Shown here one piece after another: positions 13,381 through 42,998 of a stretch of DNA of 47,132 bases. The notes beneath the pieces are model-generated. The model saw only the letters and a program-made list of their open reading frames with translations. It searched no databases and had not been told where the DNA came from. The number at the start of each line of letters is the position of its first letter. Position 1 is the first letter of the stretch. Both the position numbers and the translations under genes were made by a program. Origin of the DNA: Nitrospirota bacterium (GTDB lineage: Bacteria > Nitrospirota > 9FT-COMBO-42-15 > HDB-SIOI813); NCBI GenBank assembly GCA_016212215.1, contig JACRGV010000080.1:1-47132 (forward strand), written 5' to 3'.

Positions 13381-14538
13381 ATGAAGACATCTGAAATAAA
13401 AGAAATAATAGCAAAAGGTGAAGGCCATCATACAGAATTTAAGGAGATGATTATAGATAATGAAGAGACGGCAAAAACGATAACAAGTTTTGCCAATACT
13501 GACGGGGGGAAAATATTTTTGGGTGTCGCCGATAATGGTGACATAACCGGGATTGAGGATGTTGATGAAACAATAAGAAGGATAGATGATATTGCATTTA
13601 ACAGGTGTGAACCGCCCATCACCGTATTACAGGAGACTGTTAATATTGATGACAAGATGGTTCTTATTGTAAATATCCCAAAGGGTGAGCAGAGACCATA
13701 CAGAACAATAAAAGGCATTTACTATGTCAGGAGCGCAAACCGGTGCAGGCAGGCATCAAGGGAAGAACTGCTAAGATTATTTCAGTCAGCAGGAGATGTA
13801 TTCTATGACGAAACAGAAATTTATAAGGCTGCGATAGATGACCTTGACCGATATTTTTTCAAATCATTTGTAAAGGAATACTTAAAATTGGAGGCTACCG
13901 AAAGGCTGTCTGAGAATTATATGAGAAATTTAAGGGTACTGTCGTCAGGAGGAAAACCTACACTTACAGGACTTCTGTTTTTTGGAGAAAACCCTCAGAG
14001 TTTTTATCCGCACGCAAAAGTGGTTGCAGCCTATATAGACGGTAAAGATATATCTGTACCTCCGATGGATAAAAAGGAAATTACAGGAAAGATGCATCAG
14101 GTACTTGAGAACTCCATGAATTTTCTGAGGTTGTATCTGACGGAAGAACATAGGATAAAAGACCTTGAACCTGAGGTATTCCCTGAAATCCCTACTGAGG
14201 CTCTACGTGAGGCACTCGTGAATGCTGTTGCCCATCGCGATTACACCATCAGTTCTCCTATCAGAATATTTATCTTCCGAGATCGGATAGAGTTCCGAAC
14301 ACCGGGAAAACTTCCTAATACTGTGACAATAGAGAGCATGAAAATGGGCGGCGCTCATGTACTGAGAAATCCTACAATATACAATCTTCTTGCCAAGATG
14401 GGCCTTGTAACAGATATAGGAAGCGGTGTATTAAGAATTATAGAGTCCGTAAAAAAGGCAATTCAAAAAGAAGTAAAATTCGATTTGATTGATACTGAAT
14501 TCATCCTTACAATCCCAAGAAAAAAACCTGCGGAGTAA
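13381..14538 (+). CDS. AlbA_2 (Schlafen-like) domain protein with HATPase_c_4
   Basis: Residues 10-130 form an AlbA_2 domain: HTEFKEMI, then TITSFANTDGGKIFLGVADNG and a YYVRSANRCRQAS segment. This is the divergent AAA_4/Schlafen fold implicated in nucleic-acid binding. A middle winged-helix region is followed by the C-terminal HATPase_c_4 motif IPTEALREALVNAVAHRDY, with GSGVLRI near the end. These proteins were formerly labelled RecG-like transcription regulators and often sit beside mobile or defence genes. A second, unrelated-length member is encoded at 29867-31321. No Shine-Dalgarno precedes ATG 13381, so the mRNA may be leaderless. Confidence 0.88.
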   Translation: MKTSEIKEIIAKGEGHHTEFKEMIIDNEETAKTITSFANTDGGKIFLGVADNGDITGIEDVDETIRRIDDIAFNRCEPPITVLQETVNIDDKMVLIVNIPKGEQRPYRTIKGIYYVRSANRCRQASREELLRLFQSAGDVFYDETEIYKAAIDDLDRYFFKSFVKEYLKLEATERLSENYMRNLRVLSSGGKPTLTGLLFFGENPQSFYPHAKVVAAYIDGKDISVPPMDKKEITGKMHQVLENSMNFLRLYLTEEHRIKDLEPEVFPEIPTEALREALVNAVAHRDYTISSPIRIFIFRDRIEFRTPGKLPNTVTIESMKMGGAHVLRNPTIYNLLAKMGLVTDIGSGVLRIIESVKKAIQKEVKFDLIDTEFILTIPRKKPAE

Positions 14539-20177: not shown

Positions 20178-20224
20178 GGATTACTGGGGATTACTGGGGA
20201 TTACTGGGGATTACTGGGGATTAC
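20178..20224. repeat. Tandem decamer repeat, GGATTACTGG x about 4.5
   Basis: Four to five exact copies of a 10-bp unit abut the stop codon of the small membrane protein gene. The last unit changes to GGATTACAG, which includes that stop codon. Confidence 0.85.
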
Positions 20225-20481: not shown

Positions 20482-20907
20482 TTAGGGAAGCCTGTTGAGA
20501 TAATCAGCTATATATTTGGAGAATTTTTCAAAATCAGGAAGGTCTTTTTGAAGGTGACGATGTATTTCTTCTAAATCTATTTTAGTATACTCATGCACAA
20601 GAATATTTCTTAAACCTGCTACAGGAGAGAAAGAATACGCAAATTCATCCGGTATTATTCCAGCCTCTCCAAGTATATCAATACTCTCCTTGTATTCCTC
20701 CGGTTTACGGAGTTCAAGTTCAGAAATCATCATCTCGGCAACATCTATTACACATTCGGCAGAAAGGTGCATGTATCTCTCAACAGCCCCTCTCAAGGTG
20801 TGATCTCTCTTTAGGTCTTCCATAGTGGAGTTCCGGTAACCATTAAGATATCCCACATATTCTCTCAGGTTATTTAACTTCCTACTCACTTTCTCTTTAA
20901 ACGTCAT
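20482..20907 (-). CDS. hepT: HepT-like ribonuclease toxin
   Basis: The 141-residue DUF86/HepT protein carries the catalytic RX4HXY motif as RNILVHEY near residues 104-111. HepT proteins are HEPN-type RNases neutralised by their MntA partner through AMP transfer onto the motif Tyr. The start overlaps the mntA stop as ATGA, with a GGAGGG about 11 nt upstream. Helical content and length are normal, and nothing suggests inactivation. Confidence 0.92.
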   Translation of the reverse strand: MTFKEKVSRKLNNLREYVGYLNGYRNSTMEDLKRDHTLRGAVERYMHLSAECVIDVAEMMISELELRKPEEYKESIDILGEAGIIPDEFAYSFSPVAGLRNILVHEYTKIDLEEIHRHLQKDLPDFEKFSKYIADYLNRLP

Positions 20908-21326
20908 TTCCGGGCAAACCCTCCGGACGACATTTTCTGAAGTACCACCTCTGCATGTCTTTTATCATAGTATCTCCTGTCAAGATACCTGGACAATATA
21001 TCCAGCTCCATATCAACTTTTGCAGGTCTGTCACTGCAGAATAGTAATTTCCCATGCCTGATGATTTCATAAGAAAGCTGTATAGGTGACTCATTCAATA
21101 CAACAAGGTCAACCCTTTTACCCATTATGGCTGACACATCATTTGAGAGCCTGAGTCTCAGATCAAAACGGTCTGCCTTCTTAATATCTGTATGTATAAA
21201 CACAGCAACATCTATGTCACTCAACACACCAGCCACACCTTTTGCCTCGGAGCCGAAAATGTAGGCAGTAACAACGTGATATTTCTTAAGGCACCCTTCT
21301 ATCTTTTGAATATCCTCCTCATTCAT
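20904..21326 (-). CDS. mntA: MntA-type nucleotidyltransferase antitoxin
   Basis: The 140-residue protein has the minimal nucleotidyltransferase motif GS-x10-D-x-D as GSEAKGVAGVLSDID (about residues 25-39), the AMP-transferring site that silences HepT. It precedes and overlaps hepT by 4 nt. TATAAT lies only 7 nt before the ATG and there is no ribosome site, so translation probably starts on a leaderless transcript. The pair lies at the distal end of the defence-like block. Confidence 0.92.
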   Translation of the reverse strand: MNEEDIQKIEGCLKKYHVVTAYIFGSEAKGVAGVLSDIDVAVFIHTDIKKADRFDLRLRLSNDVSAIMGKRVDLVVLNESPIQLSYEIIRHGKLLFCSDRPAKVDMELDILSRYLDRRYYDKRHAEVVLQKMSSGGFARK

Positions 21327-21333
21327 GAGAGAT

Positions 21334-21339
21334 ATTATA
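21334..21339 (-). promoter_or_regulatory. Extended -10 box of mntA-hepT
   Basis: Minus-strand TTGC-TATAAT ends 7 nt before the mntA ATG. The -35 hexamer is poor (TATATT at 17 bp), as is common for extended -10 promoters. Confidence 0.5.
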
Positions 21340-21549
21340 GCAATACGATTTTAAAAAATATACCAAAACTTGAAGCCGCCAAAGCAGTTTTAGCCGGAAG
21401 TTGCACATGTGCAGGAGGGGTTTTGAATTATCACTTCTCATATCTATCCTTCAAAAATGCAATACCTGTATAGGCTCACTCACCTGCTCAGCAATTGTTC
21501 CCTTAGACAAGGTGGTAACAGCGGGGATTTCTTGTTGTAAACTTATAAT

Positions 21550-21852
21550 TCAAGACTTGGTACTGCTGTAGCCCATCTTTTTATACGTCTCATGCTTCAT
21601 TAGTAGTTCACGATTTGCCCGATAACTTTCTTTATTAATAACATCAAGCCTCGCATTAAGATCACATAGGTTCGCTGCATCATTAGCTGACAATGAGCAT
21701 TTCACATAATATGACCCTTTGACCCCATCTTGAAATATAACAATAGGCATTTTATAGTTGGATTCTATTGGGATTATGATTGACAAAAAATGGGAAACAG
21801 AATCTTTTATTTTCGTTTGAGTAGTGGCATTTGAATCAAATAGTATTTCCAT
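21550..21852 (-). CDS. Hypothetical protein of the defence-like block
   Basis: Start ATG 21852 has GGAGGG 6 nt upstream, giving 100 residues; the longer frame from 21897 lacks a site. The sequence has a beta-rich centre (MPIVIFQDGVKGSYYVKCSL) and a C-terminal helix, AANLCDLNARLDVINKESYR. The SANDAANLCDLNARLD stretch faintly recalls the end of DGQHR/DndB-like proteins, but too little is present to assign it. It lies in the same direction as the EVE gene, about 130 bp beyond it. Confidence 0.65.
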   Translation of the reverse strand: MEILFDSNATTQTKIKDSVSHFLSIIIPIESNYKMPIVIFQDGVKGSYYVKCSLSANDAANLCDLNARLDVINKESYRANRELLMKHETYKKMGYSSTKS

Positions 21853-21893
21853 CGTAGACCCTCCTCTAATCATTCTTTCTATTATTTTTCTCC

Positions 21894-21975
21894 TCAAATT
21901 AACCCAATCTCCTCCTTTGTCAGCCCATAAAACCCTTAACCCAGCCGGGCTGTTTCCTCTTCAAGGCGTGGGATG
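21894..21975 (-). pseudogene. Possible C-terminal remnant of a DNA methyltransferase
   Basis: Between the EVE stop and the next gene one frame reads DIPRLEEETARLG and, after a frame break, GFYGLTKEEIGLI followed by a stop. The YGLT-x-EEI ending is common at the C-terminus of type II N6-adenine methyltransferases and parallels VYELYGLNADDIGEV at the end of the methyltransferase at 22391. It may be a relic of a duplicated or replaced gene. The stretch is very short and the call is weak. Confidence 0.3.
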
Positions 21976-21980
21976 TCGCT

Positions 21981-22391
21981 TCAATGCCTTGCCCCAAGAC
22001 TGACAATGTACTCAAACACCGCTCTTTCAAGCTGCATAACAGACAATCTCGGCTGTTTGACCAAGGGGATATGCTGCAAGTCCGGTTCTAACTTAATCTG
22101 ATCCAAAGTTACTGGGTGCTCAAAGGTTTGGACCGGTTCAAAATCAACGGCAAGCCAGTTTGTGGCGGCGGTAGTCGGGTCGGGAAATGGCGATTTAGCA
22201 ACTTGCATGATGCCGAATATCTGTTTGCCTGACGGGCCGTGATAATAGAGGGCTTCATCTCCATGTGCCATCCGGGCAATATTGTTTTTTGCCTGGTGGT
22301 TGCGGATTCCGTAGAGCTTGAAGGTGCCTTTCATCAGGACATCCCCCCATGAGCGGGTACGGAAAGGTGATTTAACCAACCAGTATTGCAT
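21981..22391 (-). CDS. EVE-domain protein
   Basis: The 136-residue product is one EVE domain: YWLVKSPF at the start, GIRNHQAKNNIARMAHGD and ALYYHGPSGKQIFGIMQV. EVE domains are PUA/YTH-like folds that bind modified bases in DNA or RNA, and they often accompany restriction systems. Its ATG overlaps the stop codon of the methyltransferase gene as TGATG, so translation is coupled. That is strong evidence that the two products act together. The length matches stand-alone EVE proteins. Confidence 0.93.
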   Translation of the reverse strand: MQYWLVKSPFRTRSWGDVLMKGTFKLYGIRNHQAKNNIARMAHGDEALYYHGPSGKQIFGIMQVAKSPFPDPTTAATNWLAVDFEPVQTFEHPVTLDQIKLEPDLQHIPLVKQPRLSVMQLERAVFEYIVSLGARH

Positions 22392-25300
22392 CAGTCGTTT
22401 CCATGTTTGGGTTGTGAATTGTTATTCTGTGCTTTGGCCAGCTTTGGATAGCGCCGTATGTACCAGTTTTCTACCTCACCGATGTCATCTGCGTTCAGTC
22501 CGTACAATTCATAAACTAATCTATCTATCTCATGTTGCTGTTTTTCGTAATTATACTCAGGGTTAATTTTTAAACTTTCAATTACCTCAGAAACAATCGA
22601 GTTTAATTTATTACCACCAAGAATAACCATCGGAATATCTTCAATATCTTGTGCATTAGAGTTGACTGTGTGATTGATCATGCTATTGAAAAGATATCTA
22701 ACCAGTTTGCTACATAAAATACCGAGTAAGGCAATTTTATCTATGCTATCTTTTGGGAAAATAACCTGAAACCCATTTTGGAACAATTGCAACTTAGTAT
22801 ATCTGAAGAGAGGTGAGTAAATGCCAGCGGCAGTTACACCAACCCCATCAGAAAAATACCTATGCTGATTTCTTAGTGCATTTTTGGGTCTTAATTCACT
22901 CACTGTTGCTCTGTCCCAAGGAAAATAAAAATCTGTCGGATAAAAATAATTATTAAATTGGTTATTATCTTTAATGGTTTCACCGCCTTTTTCAAATTCT
23001 AAATAATATGGTGTCTTATCATTCTTTATAATAATTCCATTAGCTTTCTCTTCACTCGAGAGTTGCCTTTTTACAATCAAGTCACCATTTACTTTGTCAT
23101 ACCCACCTGACCCCGATAAAGATCGTATGTACTTTTTATTGTCATATGATTTGATTCCCCCACAAATTTCAACTAACAGATATTTCAAAGTAGCAAGCTG
23201 TAAAAGCTTATTATTAATTTCAACAAGTCTGCACTGGATTTTATCATCTCCAATTGATAAATAGTTGGTGGGTGCAATCACATTATTCATAATGCAAAAT
23301 AACTTCGGCGAAGCCACAAAGAAGGGAATATTGGAATTGGTCATTATTAGTGACTGTGGGTAATAGTAGATGGCGTATTCAGGGTTAGAAACATTCTCCC
23401 GCTCTCTGAAGCCTTCAGTAGAGGTGAGAACTTCAATGAAGCGCTCATGCTCGTCATGTATACTGATGTTGGTCATGTCAACCATCTGGCAGTGATGGCC
23501 CGGGTCTATAAACATTTTGTCCAGCGGTATCTTAGTTGGATAAACGTTTCGCTCGCACACAATGATGGCGGTGTTGACCGTTGCCTTGAATGTATCGGGA
23601 TGCACTCGGATCATTTTGTGGATATAATTGTGCATCATCTGCTGACGCAGTTCCTTGTGGCTCTTGATGGTCATAAAGGTGTCGGAGACGATGAAGGAGA
23701 GGACGCCGCCTGGTTTTAGCGGTGTCGCATTCTGTCCGTTCCCCAGAAAGCGTGCAATGAAGGCGCCGTAGGGGTCTTTGGAGCTCAAGTCCAGCTTTTG
23801 TTTGATAGCATCAGGAATATCGGTGCCGCCATAGGGTGGATTGCCGATTACGATATCAAAAGGCTTGTGGATCAATTCAGGGAAAAATAGATCAAGGTTG
23901 AAGAACGGAGCGCATAGATTCCCGTGCTGGAACCACTTCTTCAGGAGTTCCCTGTTCCGTATGCTCTCTGATTTCTGGTCATTCATTTTTTTACCGGTAA
24001 TCCGTTGGGCGAAGTCAGGGAAATAGGTCGCCAATGTATCCGCAACATTTGTGGCTATGGCGGTCTTGTCCTCCCGTGTCAAATTGGGTTTGTAGTAGCT
24101 CTCCTTTGCGTTGCGCAGGTGGGTGAAAACCGATTCGTTGAAAAGACCAACATCCACTTCCATCAGTGAATCGGCGCAAATAACTTTTGTTTCGATATTG
24201 GGAAGAGGGGTGATGTGATAGTTTTCCTGCGGCAGGCTTTTATCAATCTTCTGCTCAATCAGCAATGAGATGAAGAAGCGCAGCTTGGTGATCAGTGTCG
24301 CAAGCGGCTGATTGTCAATTCCGTAAATGGCATTCTTGATGATACCCAGCTTCCTGGGATAGTCCTCCATATGTTGCTTGAGGATCTTCGCAAAGTTTTC
24401 CCTCTGGAACCTATCTTCTATTTTGGATAACTGCCTTTCGAGCCATAAATCGTTTTCAGGATCAACTTTCTTCAATAAGCTGACAATCCTGTGGAGCATC
24501 CCCATGGGAAATGCACCGGAACCGCAGGCAGGGTCCAGCACCTTGACGGAATCAAGGGCATCAACGGTCAGAACCTTGAATTTAGTATCCTGGTCTTCGA
24601 TCCGATCGAAGTAGATCAAATCGTTCAGCTTCTTCACAAACCCGGCCTGTCCCTGCTGCTTAAAGTAGTTGGAGAGATAGATAAGGAGGGACTCGTTGAC
24701 CATGTAGTCAATTACCTTCCGGGGTGTATAGTAAGAGCCCGATTCCTTCCTCGCGTTCTTGGCCACCTTCTCGTCCGGGTCAATTTCCGCAAGGAGGTTT
24801 TCAAAGACAAGGCCAAGCAACTCCGGGTCAAGGGCAACCTCTTCCTCAAGTGGGGTACTTTCATCCACGGTGAAGACAAACTGTGACAGAATCTTGTTCA
24901 AACCATGAGTTTCTCTTGCATTTCTGCCTGTGCCTACCTGAAGGCTATTGGCATAAAAAAGCTCATTGGGTATGTAGAGAGGACCGTCTTCAATGGTCTC
25001 GTTGTAATTATCCTCCTCAAGCCTGTCAAACAGGCCGCCGTTGAGAAATGGTATGGCGTCGAAAAGCTTGTAGTCAAAATTATCCGGCAGATACTTCTTC
25101 CCAAGATATTCGGCCTTTCTTTTTACCGGATTCATGGGAGAGTTAAGGCAGCTCAGGAAGATATTCTGGAGTATGCCCCGATAGTAGCTATTCTCCTTGA
25201 TGAAATCATTATCTGTCTTCCTTACCAGTACCAGGAATTTGTCAAGATGGTCATGAAGTTCTATTAATCTGGGATTGATAAGTCCTCTTTCCTTCAGGAA

Positions 25301-26116
25301 CCAGCAGAATATCATCCGGCATATCAATCTAACGGTGAAATTCTTTACATTTTCCTTGTCATCCTTATAATATTCCGGTCGTATGGGGAGTTTTATCGTG
25401 TTGGTAGCGTAATAGTACCAGGCGGAAATCTTTGTATAAAACTCTCTGTTTAATTCCTTGGTGTCAAGCACCTTGACGAAGGCCTTGTAGAGGCCGTCCA
25501 TCGTGGTAATAGCGCCGTATTTGGCAAGTAACTGAGGGAAGGCAAACTGTAAAAGTATTTCTACATGAGCATGATGAGGATTCGTGATGTTGATATCTTT
25601 GATGAGCGATACCTTTTTCAGGAGGACGTCTTTCGTGCTATCCAGCTTGTTTGGCCTGCGGTCAATAATGGATACGGTCAGCGAATTTCCATGTTTGAAA
25701 AGCAGAATAACAGGCATGCGAAATAGACGGTTCACCTCGCGGGTGATACGGCTAAGGCCAGTTCGGCTGTAATGAGGTTTGATAAGTTCAATAGCGAAGA
25801 AGAGATATGACTCTATGACGGCATTGTCAACCCGCTTTATGTTGAATAATGAAGTCTGTTTCAGCACCTCTTCTTTTGAAAGCTGGAATAGAAGGTCAAC
25901 ATAATCCCAATCTGCCACAATCGCATTTCTATCATTAAATTTGGATTGAATATCAATCCATGATTCCTTGAAAGTATTATAGGTGGGTTTATCAAGAGGG
26001 GCCTGCCTTTCAGTATTGTAGCCAAGTGTTTGAAAAAGGTGTAAGGCATTTGCAGTAAGACTGCCACTGGCAAATGCTTCGATGGATTGTTTGATGCCTG
26101 CTTTAAAATCTTTCAC
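22391..26116 (-). CDS. Large N6-adenine-type DNA methyltransferase (Eco57I-like)
   Basis: The 1241-residue protein has an N-terminal region of about 430 residues with NRLFRMPVILLFKHG and IIDRRPNK, possibly nuclease-related but without a PD-(D/E)xK motif I can point to. The methyltransferase core follows: GSYYTPRKVIDYMV (motif X, about 455), DPACGSGAFPMGML (motif I, about 525) and IGNPPYGG (motif IV, about 753). A long C-terminal target-recognition region ends in YELYGLNADDIGEVE. It resembles the modification subunit found beside helicases in BREX, DISARM and type IIG-like systems. GTG 26116 is the start and overlaps the end of repeat copy R14; a G-run from the repeat lies about 10 nt upstream. 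Confidence 0.9.
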   Translation of the reverse strand: MKDFKAGIKQSIEAFASGSLTANALHLFQTLGYNTERQAPLDKPTYNTFKESWIDIQSKFNDRNAIVADWDYVDLLFQLSKEEVLKQTSLFNIKRVDNAVIESYLFFAIELIKPHYSRTGLSRITREVNRLFRMPVILLFKHGNSLTVSIIDRRPNKLDSTKDVLLKKVSLIKDINITNPHHAHVEILLQFAFPQLLAKYGAITTMDGLYKAFVKVLDTKELNREFYTKISAWYYYATNTIKLPIRPEYYKDDKENVKNFTVRLICRMIFCWFLKERGLINPRLIELHDHLDKFLVLVRKTDNDFIKENSYYRGILQNIFLSCLNSPMNPVKRKAEYLGKKYLPDNFDYKLFDAIPFLNGGLFDRLEEDNYNETIEDGPLYIPNELFYANSLQVGTGRNARETHGLNKILSQFVFTVDESTPLEEEVALDPELLGLVFENLLAEIDPDEKVAKNARKESGSYYTPRKVIDYMVNESLLIYLSNYFKQQGQAGFVKKLNDLIYFDRIEDQDTKFKVLTVDALDSVKVLDPACGSGAFPMGMLHRIVSLLKKVDPENDLWLERQLSKIEDRFQRENFAKILKQHMEDYPRKLGIIKNAIYGIDNQPLATLITKLRFFISLLIEQKIDKSLPQENYHITPLPNIETKVICADSLMEVDVGLFNESVFTHLRNAKESYYKPNLTREDKTAIATNVADTLATYFPDFAQRITGKKMNDQKSESIRNRELLKKWFQHGNLCAPFFNLDLFFPELIHKPFDIVIGNPPYGGTDIPDAIKQKLDLSSKDPYGAFIARFLGNGQNATPLKPGGVLSFIVSDTFMTIKSHKELRQQMMHNYIHKMIRVHPDTFKATVNTAIIVCERNVYPTKIPLDKMFIDPGHHCQMVDMTNISIHDEHERFIEVLTSTEGFRERENVSNPEYAIYYYPQSLIMTNSNIPFFVASPKLFCIMNNVIAPTNYLSIGDDKIQCRLVEINNKLLQLATLKYLLVEICGGIKSYDNKKYIRSLSGSGGYDKVNGDLIVKRQLSSEEKANGIIIKNDKTPYYLEFEKGGETIKDNNQFNNYFYPTDFYFPWDRATVSELRPKNALRNQHRYFSDGVGVTAAGIYSPLFRYTKLQLFQNGFQVIFPKDSIDKIALLGILCSKLVRYLFNSMINHTVNSNAQDIEDIPMVILGGNKLNSIVSEVIESLKINPEYNYEKQQHEIDRLVYELYGLNADDIGEVENWYIRRYPKLAKAQNNNSQPKHGND

Positions 26117-26205
26117 AAGAAAATAACCCCCCCATGCCCCCCCTTAAACTAAGGGGGGGATTTTTATTCTCCTTTGTAGGCGGTATGCGCATGAAGTTTT
26201 CCCTC
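26112..26205 (+). repeat. Palindromic repeat copy R14 (core C), at the methyltransferase start
   Basis: TTCACAAGAAAATA end, CCCCCCC-CATG-CCCCCCC and AAGGGGGGG palindrome, then TCCTTTGTAGGCGG flank. It aligns base for base with the copy at 27277. It fills the 130-bp gap between the helicase and methyltransferase genes. Confidence 0.8.
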
Positions 26206-26246
26206 GAATTCGGGGGAATTAGACTTGTATGTTTCTTCATATTATC

Positions 26247-29200
26247 CTACTTTATCACTAACCAAGTGACCAGTTCAAAATTGTTCATATCGCTCACCTG
26301 TTTTGATTTTGGGATGAGTAATGCTCCACGGTCTGTTGTCAGTTTTTGATTGCTTTTCTTTTTAAATATTGTGTTGATTTCATGAATGGCCCGGCTGAGC
26401 AATTTGGTGTATTGCCCCATATCTTCACCCTGCCTTGTTTCGCTGTTAAAGAGTTCGCACAGTTCTTCATAAGGTTCTCTCCTGCCCTGACACATCAGGC
26501 GATAAATCTCCAAAATTTGCTTTGCATTGATGTAATTGAAACGTACGGTTCCATCATCCCGGATATACACAAGAAAGTATGGTTGCAATGGATTGATCTC
26601 TTCGTTGCCCTCTGTGTCACCCTTCTGTTTCAGGCAATATACAACACCTGGTTTGATGATTTCTTTTTCACTCGAAAATCTCCGATGCTCACCCCCACCC
26701 TGACCCTCCCCCGTCAAGGGGGAGGGAATATTAGCTGCCCGTGTTGAATCTAAGAAATCTGAATGTTTTCCAGATGGCGATGGTACTACGGCATACAGAC
26801 CGAATGGGGCATCTTCTAATTTTTCACGGTTGTTTTCTATAAAGTTCATCAACTCAATCCTGAAATCGTCCAATGTGAAATCAGTCAGAGAAATACTTTC
26901 ATTCCTTTCATCTTCCATGTCAAGCACCTCATTCCTGAGTCTCTTCAACTGCTGATCCCGGTATTTCAGGTCTTCTTCAATCAGTTCTTCAATCTGCTCT
27001 GCATTCAGGATGTTATCTTCGCCTGTGGCTGTCACATCTACCAACGCCATTCTGGCCTCCACACGCTCTTTCAGATTGATGTAATTGTCAAGGTCTTCGG
27101 TGGGCCAGAAGTTTACTAACTGTATCTTATTATTCTTACTACCCAAACGGTCAATACGTCCAAAACGCTGAATTATACGAACGGGATTCCAGTGAATGTC
27201 GTAATTGATGAGGAAATCACAGTCCTGCAGGTTCTGTCCTTCGCTGATACAGTCTGTAGCAATCAATATATCAATCTCATCTGAAAATACCCCCCCATCC
27301 CCCCCCTTGTTAAGGGGGGGATTTCCATTGTCCTTTGTGAGCGCCCCGCTCATAGACGTTTCATTTGAGAATCCCCGTTTCAAATCCCCCCAGCCCCCCT
27401 TTTCTAAAGGGGGGTATAGTATTCCCCCTTTCATCTTATCTCTGTTCTTGGAGATAGGAGAGAAATTGGTAAGGATGCTTGCGAAATCGTTTTTACCAAA
27501 GGTGGTCTGTGTGGCTGTCCCTTCAATTAGTGCAATGTTCAAACATAGACCTTCATTTACCCAGTCTTTAAGGTGTTTGTAGAGGTATTGGGCTGTGTCA
27601 GCAAAGGCTGTAAAGACGATTACCTTTTTGTTGCCGTTGTTTAACGGTTGCTGCACTTTGTCGGCAATTAGTTTTTTGAGGTCTTTGAGTTTTGCATCTC
27701 TGTCGGGGGTTACTGCTACTGCATTGTTGTATAGGTCAATAAGCGCTTCTTTGTCTTTTCGTAAATTCTCTAACCAATCATCCAGATCCAGATCTGCCAG
27801 ATCAAATTTTAATTTTTTACCTACCTGCCATTGCTCTGATTCATCAGTGATTTCTTCTAACTCATCTTCATCAGGCGAAAGTGTCTCTAATTCTTCTTCC
27901 TGCGATTTAAGTTTTGCCTGTTGAAATGCAGTGATTTTATTTTCCAGGTTTTCAATCTTCCGAATGGTCCTGTCCATTGAGATTTCAAACGATTCTATAG
28001 AGCTTTCCAGACGCTTGAGAAAATTTACCTTCATCATCCCGATCAAAAAATGCTCACGGTCGCTCTGCTTGAACCCTAACACACCAGTCGTGGCTGCTAA
28101 TGCTTCATATTTTTTTATCATTTCCGGTTTCACGTATGCAGAAGGGTTGAACACCGAAAGTTTGTATTGGAGTATCCTCTTGTTCAATGCATCGTAAGTA
28201 AAGAAGCGGTCTTTGATGTCAATGTTCGGATAAATGGAGTGCGGTTTTAACCGTTCAGGGAATTGCCATATAGTATTAATATTGTAAAAGCCCTTTATGT
28301 GTTTTCTGCTCCGTGCAATAGTGAGTTCATCCAGCAGTTTGAAGAAGGATGAATCAAGACGCTCAAGTAACTGTTTGACTGTCCTGTCAGGGTTCTTTTT
28401 GTGGTCAGCCCAGAGGGTGAATTGTGTCTGGGCATTCTTTAGTGAAAGGGCGATGTCTCTGATTTGTGTGCTTTCAAAGAGTGCATCATTCCTGCCTTCA
28501 GTAATGAGCGATATCTGATTTCTCAGATCACGAAGGTTATTGTTGACAGGCGTTGCAGAGAGCATCAGCACTTTGGTCTTAACTCCCGATTTGATGATTT
28601 TCTCCATCAGCCATTTGGCACGATTCATCCTGATAGTACCGTCTTCTCTGGTCTTCTCCATAGGGTTGCCGCGGAAATTGTGGCTCTCATCAATCACTAC
28701 CAAGTCATAAGCCCCCCAGTTGTAATTCTCCAGGTCAATTCCATTGGCATCCGATTTACCGGTAATCCTGCCGAGGTCTGTATGATATAAGACCGTGTAG
28801 TTAAAACGGTCCCTTGTAAATGGGTTCAGTGAATTGTTCTGGCTGGCCTGATAAATTGTCCAGTTGGCTGAAAGTTTCTTCGGGCAGAGTACTAGGACAC
28901 GGGAGTTCAATAATTCAAAGTATCTGATGACTGCCAATGCCTCAAAGGTCTTACCCAGCCCCACGCTGTCGGCAATGATACATCCGTTATGTTTCAGGAT
29001 TTTGTTGATTGCGCCTTTTACACCATCTTTCTGAAAGTCATAAAGCATATCCCAGATTTCGCTATCAAAAAAACCTGTTTTTTCAGTCAGCAGCCCGCCT
29101 TTCTTTTGCTCGTCAAGATAGCCTTCGAATATATGGAAGAGTGTTTTGAAGTAAATAAATTCAGGTTCATTCTCAACATAAAACTCTTCTAAATATTGCA

Positions 29201-29792
29201 GGACCTGATCCTTTACATCTTCAACCAGCCCGGTATTATCATCCCACAATTCATTGAACCAGTTTTTGAGGTCATACAGATCTCTCCTGTCCTGAATGAC
29301 CATATTCAATTCAATGTTCGGGCTGCCTCCCATGCCAAGACCGTTTACTGTAAAGTTGGAACTTCCCATTACAGATTCTTTCACACCATTAGTGTTTTCA
29401 ATCAGGTATAGCTTGCCGTGAAGAAAGTTCGGCTTGACCATAGATTTGATGTCCACCTTCTGCCTGATCCATTCGGAGCAATCTCTGGCAATGGCCTTTT
29501 GAGTCAAACGACTTTGGATGGGAATTACGAGCTTATCATCTTCAATCTTGAAATCCCGTTTATTGGTCTTGGCAGGGTCAAGTGATTTGATGAATGTTGG
29601 TTCGCCAAAAAGGAATCTGAGATGGTTTATCTGGTCAAGTTGAGTCTTGAGATGGTTGTACGCATAAATAGTAAAGTAGGCCGAGACAACAGATAAATCA
29701 GCCTGTGGCTTCAAGTTGTCAATGAGAAATTGTCCGACCGAACCATGTTTATGATTGTCTTTTATAGAGGATGAGTTTGTGCTTGTCGTCAT
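26247..29792 (-). CDS. PLD nuclease-like / SNF2 helicase fusion
   Basis: The 1181-residue protein joins a single-HKD phospholipase D-like domain (HGKLYLIE near 120, GSSNFT near 145) to a full SNF2/SF2 motor. Motor motifs are ADSVGLGKT (Walker A, about 272), VIDESHNF (DESH), LSATPVNN and QRFGRIDRLGS (motif VI). Two segments are repeat-derived: residues about 789-839, just before motif V (DILIATDCISEGQNL), and about 1020-1042. Both are open in frame, so the protein may still fold. PLD-SNF2 proteins next to large methyltransferases occur in restriction-like defence loci. The start is uncertain: ATG 29792 or TTG 29858, neither with a ribosome site. The gene follows the AlbA_2 gene closely. Confidence 0.88.
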   Translation of the reverse strand: MTTSTNSSSIKDNHKHGSVGQFLIDNLKPQADLSVVSAYFTIYAYNHLKTQLDQINHLRFLFGEPTFIKSLDPAKTNKRDFKIEDDKLVIPIQSRLTQKAIARDCSEWIRQKVDIKSMVKPNFLHGKLYLIENTNGVKESVMGSSNFTVNGLGMGGSPNIELNMVIQDRRDLYDLKNWFNELWDDNTGLVEDVKDQVLQYLEEFYVENEPEFIYFKTLFHIFEGYLDEQKKGGLLTEKTGFFDSEIWDMLYDFQKDGVKGAINKILKHNGCIIADSVGLGKTFEALAVIRYFELLNSRVLVLCPKKLSANWTIYQASQNNSLNPFTRDRFNYTVLYHTDLGRITGKSDANGIDLENYNWGAYDLVVIDESHNFRGNPMEKTREDGTIRMNRAKWLMEKIIKSGVKTKVLMLSATPVNNNLRDLRNQISLITEGRNDALFESTQIRDIALSLKNAQTQFTLWADHKKNPDRTVKQLLERLDSSFFKLLDELTIARSRKHIKGFYNINTIWQFPERLKPHSIYPNIDIKDRFFTYDALNKRILQYKLSVFNPSAYVKPEMIKKYEALAATTGVLGFKQSDREHFLIGMMKVNFLKRLESSIESFEISMDRTIRKIENLENKITAFQQAKLKSQEEELETLSPDEDELEEITDESEQWQVGKKLKFDLADLDLDDWLENLRKDKEALIDLYNNAVAVTPDRDAKLKDLKKLIADKVQQPLNNGNKKVIVFTAFADTAQYLYKHLKDWVNEGLCLNIALIEGTATQTTFGKNDFASILTNFSPISKNRDKMKGGILYPPLEKGGWGDLKRGFSNETSMSGALTKDNGNPPLNKGGDGGVFSDEIDILIATDCISEGQNLQDCDFLINYDIHWNPVRIIQRFGRIDRLGSKNNKIQLVNFWPTEDLDNYINLKERVEARMALVDVTATGEDNILNAEQIEELIEEDLKYRDQQLKRLRNEVLDMEDERNESISLTDFTLDDFRIELMNFIENNREKLEDAPFGLYAVVPSPSGKHSDFLDSTRAANIPSPLTGEGQGGGEHRRFSSEKEIIKPGVVYCLKQKGDTEGNEEINPLQPYFLVYIRDDGTVRFNYINAKQILEIYRLMCQGRREPYEELCELFNSETRQGEDMGQYTKLLSRAIHEINTIFKKKSNQKLTTDRGALLIPKSKQVSDMNNFELVTWLVIK
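26667..26735 (+). repeat. Palindromic repeat copy R13 (core D), in frame inside the helicase gene
   Basis: TTCACTCGAAAATC end plus CCCTCCCCC-gtcaa-GGGGGAGGG core. It is translated on the other strand as IPSPLTGEGQGGGEHRRFSS. Confidence 0.8.
27277..27427 (+). repeat. Palindromic repeat copy R12 (core C plus a second core), in frame inside the helicase gene
   Basis: A complete unit with C/G-run core and TGAGCGCCCCGCTCA hairpin flank (27277-27375) is followed by a second C/G palindrome (27376-27427). The minus strand reads YPPLEKGGWGDLK, then GFSNETSMSGALTK and NPPLNKGGDGGVFS. FSNETSMS is identical to the peptide in slt. Confidence 0.85.
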
Positions 29793-29866
29793 ATTTATCA
29801 ATGACAGGATATTGTTTTTTATTGTGAGTAAATTAGCAGGATGAGGGTAGGTTGTCAATCAGAAAT

Positions 29867-31321
29867 TCAGGTATCCTGAACTTTACTTGTGGGGAAGGAT
29901 ACCAGTAAGTTCTCCAATATTTTTCCTCCTTCATCAGTCAGGCGATACTTCTGTTTGCTGCTGGTAGGTTTATCGGGGATGGTCATTTCCATCAATCGTG
30001 CCTCTATAAGAGGGTTAAGTACCTGGTGCCTAAACTTGGTGCGGTCAGTTCGCCCTGCTATGGTCATGAGTTCTGTTATTCCAGTCTCATTCAAACACTT
30101 ACGTAGTATATCAACCTGGTGCCGACTTAGTGCCAACCTGGTGCCGACTTGTTCGGCGACTTGTGGGGTAACTTCGGAGGCGGCCATAGTAACAGCCTTA
30201 TAAACCGTCACCATGAAACCGCCGCAAAATTCTTTAAACTCAGGATCAGGAAGGCCGTATGCCTTAAATGCCTTGAGTATCCTTGTGATACCTGATCCGT
30301 ATTTCTCTATCAGCCCGGCTGCTCTGAATACTTCCGCCACTTTCTTGTTTCGGACATTTGAAATATAGGTGCCCTTTAATAACTGTTCAATAGTGGTGCC
30401 TTCCGGTAATCCCCCCGGATTAAAAATCTCTATCTTATCATCGAATACCTTTATGACGGAGTCTGCTGTACTTGTATAGTCCCGGTGGATAATTGCATTG
30501 ATAACTATTTCCCGGATTGCGTCAAGCGGATAGTCCCAGCGTTCTTCCCGCTGTGGTCTGCCGGTAATAATGTATGCCTTGTTGATATGTTTTTTAATAA
30601 AGTTCATGACGCCATCTACCTCTGATAAGAGGTCGCCTTTCAAAGTGGCGCCATCTTTGATAATGATGTCCGTCTGAAACCTGCCGAGTTCAATGGTACT
30701 GATAAATGACTCTCCTGCCATAAAGAGGAGAAAACAGCCGTAGGTAATCTTCCCTTCCCGCATCAATTCAAATTTCTGTAATACGGTAAGGGGATCGTCC
30801 ATAATCTGAGTTTCTTTGATTGCATTGGCCCGCTCAATAAAATTCTGAACCTTGGTAAAGGAAATATCTTTTTCAGAGTGGTATTCGTCAACATGAAAAT
30901 CCCAGCTTGAGTTAAAAGTGCGGAGATGCATGTTGACTACTTCAGAAACTGAAAGCTGATGATTGGCGTTTTTGATGCGTTTATAGTATCTCCCCTTACA
31001 TGCAACAGGTTTTATCGGGGATTCCGGCACCGAGAATATAACAACCTGCTTTCCCTTCAGAGAGATTATTTCCGCATCAGGGATAAGCGCGTTGGATGTG
31101 AGCTGCTTCGTCTGATTTATCCAGGTCTGAATCGTTTCTTTGTTAAGCTGGACTCCTGCAACTTTTCCATTATCAGATACCCCTACAAAGACCTTCCCAC
31201 CCTTGGCATTGGCAAATGCAGCAAGCGTCTCAATCACTTCCCGGTCAAAGCTGCTTTTGAACTCCACAGTTTCAGATTCACCGGAGGGAATAACCTTTCT
31301 TCTCTTTGAATCTTTTGTCAA
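29867..31321 (-). CDS. AlbA_2 / HATPase_c_4 protein heading the defence-like block
   Basis: The AlbA_2 domain is near the N-terminus: SETVEFKSSFDREVIETLAA, FANAKGGKVFVGVSDNG and YYKRIKNANHQLSVSE. The HATPase_c_4 motif DAIREIVINAIIHRDY is central, with GLIEKYGSGITRIL after it. A C-terminal winged helix (LMTIAGRTDRTKFRHQVLNP) suggests DNA binding. TTG 31321 is preferred because AGGA lies 8 nt upstream; an upstream TTG at 31393 is also in frame. Such proteins often regulate or serve restriction and defence loci. The helicase frame opens 8 bp after its stop codon. Confidence 0.85.
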   Translation of the reverse strand: MTKDSKRRKVIPSGESETVEFKSSFDREVIETLAAFANAKGGKVFVGVSDNGKVAGVQLNKETIQTWINQTKQLTSNALIPDAEIISLKGKQVVIFSVPESPIKPVACKGRYYKRIKNANHQLSVSEVVNMHLRTFNSSWDFHVDEYHSEKDISFTKVQNFIERANAIKETQIMDDPLTVLQKFELMREGKITYGCFLLFMAGESFISTIELGRFQTDIIIKDGATLKGDLLSEVDGVMNFIKKHINKAYIITGRPQREERWDYPLDAIREIVINAIIHRDYTSTADSVIKVFDDKIEIFNPGGLPEGTTIEQLLKGTYISNVRNKKVAEVFRAAGLIEKYGSGITRILKAFKAYGLPDPEFKEFCGGFMVTVYKAVTMAASEVTPQVAEQVGTRLALSRHQVDILRKCLNETGITELMTIAGRTDRTKFRHQVLNPLIEARLMEMTIPDKPTSSKQKYRLTDEGGKILENLLVSFPTSKVQDT

Positions 31322-31504: not shown

Positions 31505-31632
31505 TCTTCTAACTTCTTGCTTCTTGCTTCTTGCTTCTAACTTCTTACTTCTTGCCTCTTGCTTCTTGCTTCTTGCCTCTTGCCTCTTGCTTCTTGCTTC
31601 TTGCCTCTTGCTTCTAACTTCTTACTTCTTCC
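31505..31632. repeat. Heptamer array, TTCTTGC / TTCTTAC / TTCTAAC
   Basis: About 17 seven-base units follow one another with three main variants. The array runs into the last codons of glyS and supplies its stop (GGG AAG AAG TAA on the minus strand). Confidence 0.9.
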
Positions 31633-37422: not shown

Positions 37423-37572
37423 ATTCATCTGAAAATCAACCCCATCCCCACCCTAACCCTCCCCTTGAAGGGGAGGGAATCAACATAGCCCCCTCTCCCT
37501 CAGGGAGAGGGTTAGGGTGAGGGTGGGGTTTTCATTGCCATTTGTGAACCTACGGTTCATGGGAGTTCATCC
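37423..37572 (+). repeat. Palindromic repeat copy R7a (core B)
   Basis: It has the same flanks as the core A copies (TTCATCTGAAAATC and TTTTCATTGCCATTTGTGAA) but a different core: CCCCACCCTAACCCTCCCC and its long inverted partner GGTTAGGGTGAGGGTGGGG. Confidence 0.9.
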
Positions 37573-42798: not shown

Positions 42799-42998
42799 CA
42801 GCGGGACTTTCTTGTCCCGCTGATTTTCATGGCCCTTTGTGAACCCTGGTTCATGTGGGTTCATCCGAAAATAAAACCCATCCCCACCCTACCCCTCCCC
42901 TTGAAGGGGAGGGAATAAACGTAGCCCCCTCTCCCTCAGGGAGAGGGTTAGGGTGAGGGTGGGGTTCTCATTGCCCTATGAACTCCTGCTCATGTGTG
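42799..42998 (+). repeat. Composite repeat copy R11 (core A fragment, then complete core B unit)
   Basis: It starts inside core A (CAGCGGGACTTTCTTGTCCC), continues through the standard flank and the shared TTCATCCGAAAAT junction, then a core B unit. The end (CTGCTCATGTGTG) contains the stop codon of the symporter gene. Confidence 0.9.

Follow-up and report, generated by a model that had tools for sequence, protein, structure and literature searches.

Genes and features of the locus

Seven genes run in the same direction on the minus strand of the window (the whole stretch of DNA analysed, 47,132 nt), from position 20482 to 31321–31393, according to the open reading frame list and to PADLOC, Pfam and NCBIfam. 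The genes and gene features of this run, as described below, all lie on that strand. A preliminary description had assigned them to the AlbA_2, PLD-SNF2, N6 methylase, EVE, small unknown and MntA/HepT families, and the database profiles back these calls. It had also reported a one-direction run with short gaps and two coupled junctions. The common direction holds and both junctions are real (TGATG between the methylase and EVE genes, ATGA between mntA and hepT), but the gaps are not all short: 130 nt separate the helicase and methylase genes, a spacer occupied by a dispersed GC-rich repeat, and 223 nt lie between the orphan reading frame and mntA. Promoter and terminator scans gave results no better than shuffle level. 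An empty-site search at glyS revealed no flanking genes downstream of glyS common to relatives and, because relatives share none there, the borders of the island could not be set.

The first gene (29867–31321) encodes a cargo protein with AlbA_2 (Schlafen AlbA_2), HATPase_c_4 and winged-HTH domains (Pfam AlbA_2 3.2e-24, HATPase_c_4 3.6e-23). Its frame is open up to 31393, and the TTG at 31321 is the likely start, judged by a homologue from the same genus. About 17 copies of the 7-base tandem repeat CTTCTTG occupy 31513–31630. They run into the 3' end of glyS and lie 190 nt ahead of this likely start, where they possibly form a length-variable element ahead of the operon. A second AlbA_2/HATPase_c_4 protein of 385 aa is encoded in the window at 13381–14538.

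The first core gene (26247–29792) encodes an HKD(PLD)-SNF2 nuclease-motor, matched by the PADLOC model C3a139 'HKD+Snf2' at 8.5e-127. The protein has 1181 aa counted from the ATG, and the frame is open up to a TTG at 29858, which gives a 1203-aa reading. In that reading, the HKD nuclease domain spans residues 25–225 (29184–29786; Pfam PLDc_2 and RE_NgoFVII). Alignment revealed two in-frame insertions derived from dispersed repeats. One, directly ahead of helicase motif V (27270–27425), is not present in 99% of homologues and has a pLDDT below 50 at model residues 791–835; the other (26682–26738, AANIPSPLTGEGQGGGEHR) coincides with a low-pLDDT stretch at 1019–1038. Both fall in loops with predicted disorder, and they might impair the function of the window's motor. 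Further dispersed GC-rich palindromic repeats of this kind lie at 26130–26159, 37441–37524 and 42877–42960. The repeats, which sit in the motor gene and in spacers, encode peptides such as PPLEKGGWGD, PPLNKGGDGG and PSPLTGEGQGGG; similar peptides appeared at many other genome sites as side matches of the helicase tblastn search.

The second core gene (22391–26116) encodes a 1241-aa gamma-class N6 DNA methyltransferase with a C-terminal specificity region (Eco57I 4.3e-18; PADLOC REase_MTase_IIG 3.9e-47 and PglX 1.8e-22). Residues 1–210 (25487–26116) form a DUF4391-like N-terminal domain, supported by PF14335, hhalign and co-variation with the motor, while residues 851–1241 (22394–23566) form a target-recognition (TRD)/C-terminal region that is exchangeable, judging from co-variation and from identity to a related locus. 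The methylase gene overlaps, and is translationally coupled to, that of a 136-aa EVE-domain protein (21981–22391; Pfam EVE 5.8e-32). Directly after the EVE gene comes what is left of another family methylase, a decayed C-terminus (21897–21977, DIPRLEEETARLG*GFYGLTKEEIGLI).

Beyond the remnant lies an orphan small reading frame of 115 aa (21550–21897) that matches no family in PADLOC, Pfam or NCBIfam. It could alternatively encode 100 aa from an ATG at 21852, ahead of which stands GGAGG; a homologue was sought in 40 relatives and none was found. The run ends with a type VII toxin-antitoxin pair, both members of which exceed the curated NCBIfam cut-offs of 60 bits: the MntA adenylyltransferase antitoxin (20904–21326, 89.7 bits) and the HepT RNase toxin (20482–20907, 115.8 bits), in which the RxxxxH motif is present. 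Downstream of hepT, a perfect 10-base tandem repeat, GGATTACTGG, is present in 4.7 copies (20178–20224).

The motor and methylase across genomes

A scan of 84,980 species genomes with the window's helicase found more than 579 relatives, of which we took the best 80, so that loci were picked by similarity to this helicase. These 80 came from Desulfuromonadales, Ignavibacteria, Bacteroidota, Lentisphaerae, Spirochaetes, Verrucomicrobia, Cyanobacteria, Planctomycetes, Chloroflexi, Proteobacteria, Poribacteria, Cloacimonadota and others. Gene calling followed by all-against-all comparison revealed only helicase and methylase as general gene families near the relatives' modules, with no third conserved gene. 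Sixty-eight loci from other genomes, spanning many phyla, had 1.5 kb or more of sequence beyond the motor, and in 65 of 68 the methylase lay downstream of the motor on the same strand; the two genes were at most 60 nt apart in 38 and 0.6–2.5 kb apart, typically with one gene between them, in 20. A scan of viral contigs with the window's methylase found no relatives.

The neighbours change around this pair. Genes between or after the motor and methylase in relatives encode AlbA_2, YhcG/DUF1016, Fic, KilA-N, RhuM, PIN, MNT, Abi_2, SMC/RecF-like ATPase, TIR-TPR, GmrSD_N or EVE proteins. Three loci from different groups (L053, L054 and L131) carry motors 74–76% identical to the window's, and their neighbours differ. 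By sequence comparison, the conserved unit is therefore two genes, the HKD-SNF2 motor and the gamma-class N6 methylase, with the others as changing cargo. The four-gene system proposed at the outset, which included AlbA_2 and EVE, does not hold up: the pair recurs in distant genomes, the set of four does not, and AlbA_2 and EVE are swappable.

Catalytic motifs are well preserved in the pair. In the motor, H147 and K149 of the HKD motif are kept in 65 of 67 sequences and GSSN is invariant in the same alignment; HxK, GSSNxT, Walker A (DSVGLGKT), DESH, SEGQN and QRxGR are near-invariant. The motor has an SNF2/RapA fold, with a BrxHII-like core. Among family methylases, DPACGSGAF and NPPY are near-invariant and the C-terminus is highly variable. 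A motor, a nuclease and a methylase with an exchangeable TRD are all present, and the best reading of the pair on these sequence grounds is an ATP-dependent restriction-modification module. The restriction-like function suggested earlier for PLD-SNF2 and the methylase gains support from the near-universal pairing, the intact motifs and the TRD exchange.

The methylase N-terminal domain and Type III-linked motors

Distances between motors and whole methylases correlated with a mirror-tree r of 0.63, against a permutation null maximum of 0.27. The correlation with the motor was carried by the methylase N-terminus (r of 0.84 for residues 1–105 and 0.91 for residues 106–209); it ranged from 0.20 to 0.65 over the middle domain and reached 0.06 in the TRD and -0.07 at the C-terminus. 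The main clade alone gave the same trend, with segment r falling from 0.57 to 0.09. This pattern suggests that residues 1–210 are a motor-docking adaptor. The motors of the window and L053 are 80% identical; within their methylases, identity is 66% for the N-domain, 34–39% for the middle part and 15% for the TRD. High motor and low TRD identity, together with the drop in co-variation, point to methylases or their TRDs having been swapped among modules through recombination. The remnant downstream of EVE shows 59% identity over 27 residues to the methylase C-terminus of L036 (E 5.6e-8 in a 1391-protein set); it is probably the scar of an earlier methylase allele, a trace that a swap could leave.

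Residues 1–210 contain no conserved nuclease motif in the alignment and gave no nuclease fold match. The AlphaFold model of this domain is confident (pLDDT 82) and matched no solved fold in the PDB at E ≤ 0.001, so that nothing in it points to a nuclease. With neither motif nor fold match there, the 'Type IIG' label was ruled out for the methylase.

Pfam DUF4391 (PF14335) matches the N-domain weakly in 42 of 49 members. An hhalign comparison with standalone DUF4391 proteins gave 93% probability (E 2.5e-7) over 138 columns; the aligned region is 15% identical. When the N-domain profile was run one way by hmmsearch against nine DUF4391 proteins, it detected nothing. The Pfam and profile-profile comparisons suggest a remote relationship, in which the N-domain would be a distant relative of DUF4391.

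As a standalone protein, DUF4391 is encoded between a sister motor and the mod and res genes of Type III loci. The order helicase, DUF4391, site-specific methylase (mod), Res is found in two genomes of the window's phylum and on E. coli chromosomes, and on plasmids of Acinetobacter, E. coli, Enterococcus, Lactococcus and the archaeon Methanomethylovorans; some of these loci contain small extra genes (one or two in L161 and L163, two in L167). Their helicases score 993–1127 bits on the family profile of the window's motor, which places them in the same family. The HKD motif is gone in all ten Type III-linked motors examined. These ten form one clade with a support of 1.0, and the outer branches of the tree carry HKD. 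In the simplest reading, the nuclease would have been lost once the Type III Res took over cutting, with modest root support (0.33/0.82 for the main clade versus the DUF4391-linked group). Compared with the window, such loci share the motor family (about 1000 bits) and a DUF4391 partner; they differ in having a dead HKD, a separate DUF4391, a Type III Mod as methylase and Res as the cleaving enzyme.

The role of extra SNF2-type ATPases beside Type III restriction genes is an acknowledged open question (Murray et al., PMC8259958). We tentatively propose, with slightly less than even confidence, that DUF4391 is a general motor-methylase adaptor, which recruits an active HKD-SNF2 motor when fused to the methylase and a nuclease-lost motor to Type III Mod/Res when standing alone. 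If so, a single motor lineage would serve two classes of restriction system via one docking domain. The Type III locus of E. coli NCTC86 (L168, 16031–25448), possibly Eco86II, lacks DUF4391 and encodes a 1040-aa Mod together with an extra SNF2 ATPase of 963 aa. At 165 bits on the family profile, this ATPase is a more distant SNF2 protein and was ruled out as a family member; we therefore do not claim that the window explains the NCTC86 locus directly.

A candidate mechanism, its alternatives and known systems

We consider it likely that the two core proteins form an ATP-dependent restriction-modification module in which the methylase docks the HKD-SNF2 motor. The methylase would mark host sites, probably at N6-adenine, via its C-terminal recognition region, and its DUF4391-like N-terminal domain would dock the motor. 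Once the recognition region encounters an unmarked site, the SNF2 motor would engage the DNA; cutting would fall to the N-terminal HKD nuclease, which probably acts as a dimer. AlbA_2, EVE and MntA/HepT would be passengers, serving as back-up toxins, regulators or an added reader of modified bases. The sequences themselves display the pairing, the intact motifs, the co-variation of docking domain and motor, the exchange of recognition regions, the turnover of cargo and the loss of HKD in Type III-linked sisters; from these we infer physical docking, ATP-driven cleavage, the methylated base and restriction of phages.

The window may hold a decaying defence island, its own copy of the module being non-functional and only its relatives active, which is compatible with the restriction-modification reading. 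The repeat insertions in the motor, the repeat in the spacer before the methylase gene and the methylase remnant after EVE fit such decay, as does a copy from the same genus that has both an in-frame stop and a broken AlbA_2 gene. However, the core frames of the window are all open with intact motifs and both insertions fall in loops predicted to be disordered, so that we regard this as rather unlikely.

BREX-like exclusion, with a motor that remodels or blocks unmarked phage DNA and HKD not the main effector, seems improbable. The methylase does resemble PglX and BREX_1_MTaseX, the SNF2 core is RapA/BrxHII-like and HKD-less sister motors persist beside Type III genes. Yet HKD residues are near-invariant in all motors paired with a methylase, their loss is confined to loci that have a Type III Res nuclease, and the window contains no PglZ or BrxC partner. 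NCBIfam BREX methylase models score far below cut-off on the window's methylase. DISARM drmA/drmB (DUF1998) are likewise absent from the locus genes, as the preliminary description had stated for the partners of both systems. A PglZ-domain gene lies elsewhere in the genome (contig C34, G000 C34:17286–17795), where there may be a BREX-like locus, and the genome's sole MZB/DUF1998 match, on contig C17, is a broken frame.

That AlbA_2, PLD-SNF2, methylase and EVE work together, EVE reading the methylase's own mark, is improbable: co-direction, the TGATG overlap, EVE near family methylases in L107 and L119 and AlbA_2 genes near several other modules speak for it, but EVE is present in only 3 of 83 paired motor-methylase loci, and AlbA_2 can be exchanged for many other neighbours. 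Moreover, the reported ligand of EVE domains is modified cytosine (PMC7641849), which sits poorly with an N6 methylase of the NPPY class. The overlap of EVE with the modifier is itself particular to the window, another small gene standing between them in L107 and L119. Bell et al. predict the opposite logic, in which EVE in defence loci sees foreign modified cytosine and the mark of the host methylase is invisible to it (PMC7641849). An optional widening of target range by EVE, the only one found in a genome-wide search, would fit better than self-mark reading. As for AlbA_2, in the same-genus locus L035 the gene sits between motor and methylase and is frameshifted; it is 80–89% identical to the window's, whereas motor and methylase of the same-genus relative are 55% and 59% identical.

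Returning to the two-gene restriction-modification reading, profile searches for a named system in PADLOC, Pfam and NCBIfam returned only domain-level or C3a139 matches. C3a139 is the best database family for the motors of the window and its relatives, but it is a single-gene model, with neither a methylase partner nor a DUF4391 adaptor attached, and so labels a protein rather than a system. Among the open-access papers searched, none names C3a139 and none describes the two-gene core or DUF4391 in restriction; the module appears to lack an existing name.

The Type-2 BREX-related (Hma-like) systems, composed of HKD-SNF2, DUF499, DUF3780 and a methylase, share the helicase domain order, restriction-modification-like logic and HKD as effector (PMC12839542). 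However, DUF499 and DUF3780 have no match in the whole genome, and DUF499 is also not conserved near the relatives' modules. Two Type-2 motors score 159–181 bits on the family profile of the window's motor, versus at least 735 for members; their methylases have DPPY and are not matched by the profile of the family methylase. In PADLOC, the window's motor scores 79.6 bits for HmaA against 422.8 for C3a139. This label was ruled out, as the two DUF partners are missing and motor and methylase belong to other families. For ARMADA, no YprA gene was found in the locus and no third conserved gene in relatives.

Among PLD nucleases coupled to SF2 motors, SauUSI carries HxKx4E (PMC7913695), as does the window (HGKLYLIE), but is a Type IV enzyme with an SRA domain and no methylase; in CglI/NgoAVII, nuclease and motor are separate chains and recognition is by a B3 domain. 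Type ISP, Type IIG and PglX methylases share the order of gamma-class methylase and then TRD. Type ISP and Type IIG enzymes have an Mrr or PD-(D/E)XK nuclease within the methylase chain, and PglX needs PglZ/BrxC, whereas in the window both nuclease and motor belong to the methylase's partner protein.

The window carries a widespread two-gene relative of the Type III-linked motors, one whose motor still has its nuclease, and co-variation makes the methylase's docking domain separable from its specificity region. Many loci whose sole annotations at present are 'helicase-related protein' and 'N-6 DNA methylase' form a large class that could then be named and found, and precise, cheap tests are opened up by HKD mutants, DUF4391 deletion and domain swaps. 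The same genome contains two more SNF2/methylase loci, L033 (G000 C133), which has a methylase-first order, and L034 (G000 C64), as well as a third related SNF2 helicase (G000 C17:10702–13089).
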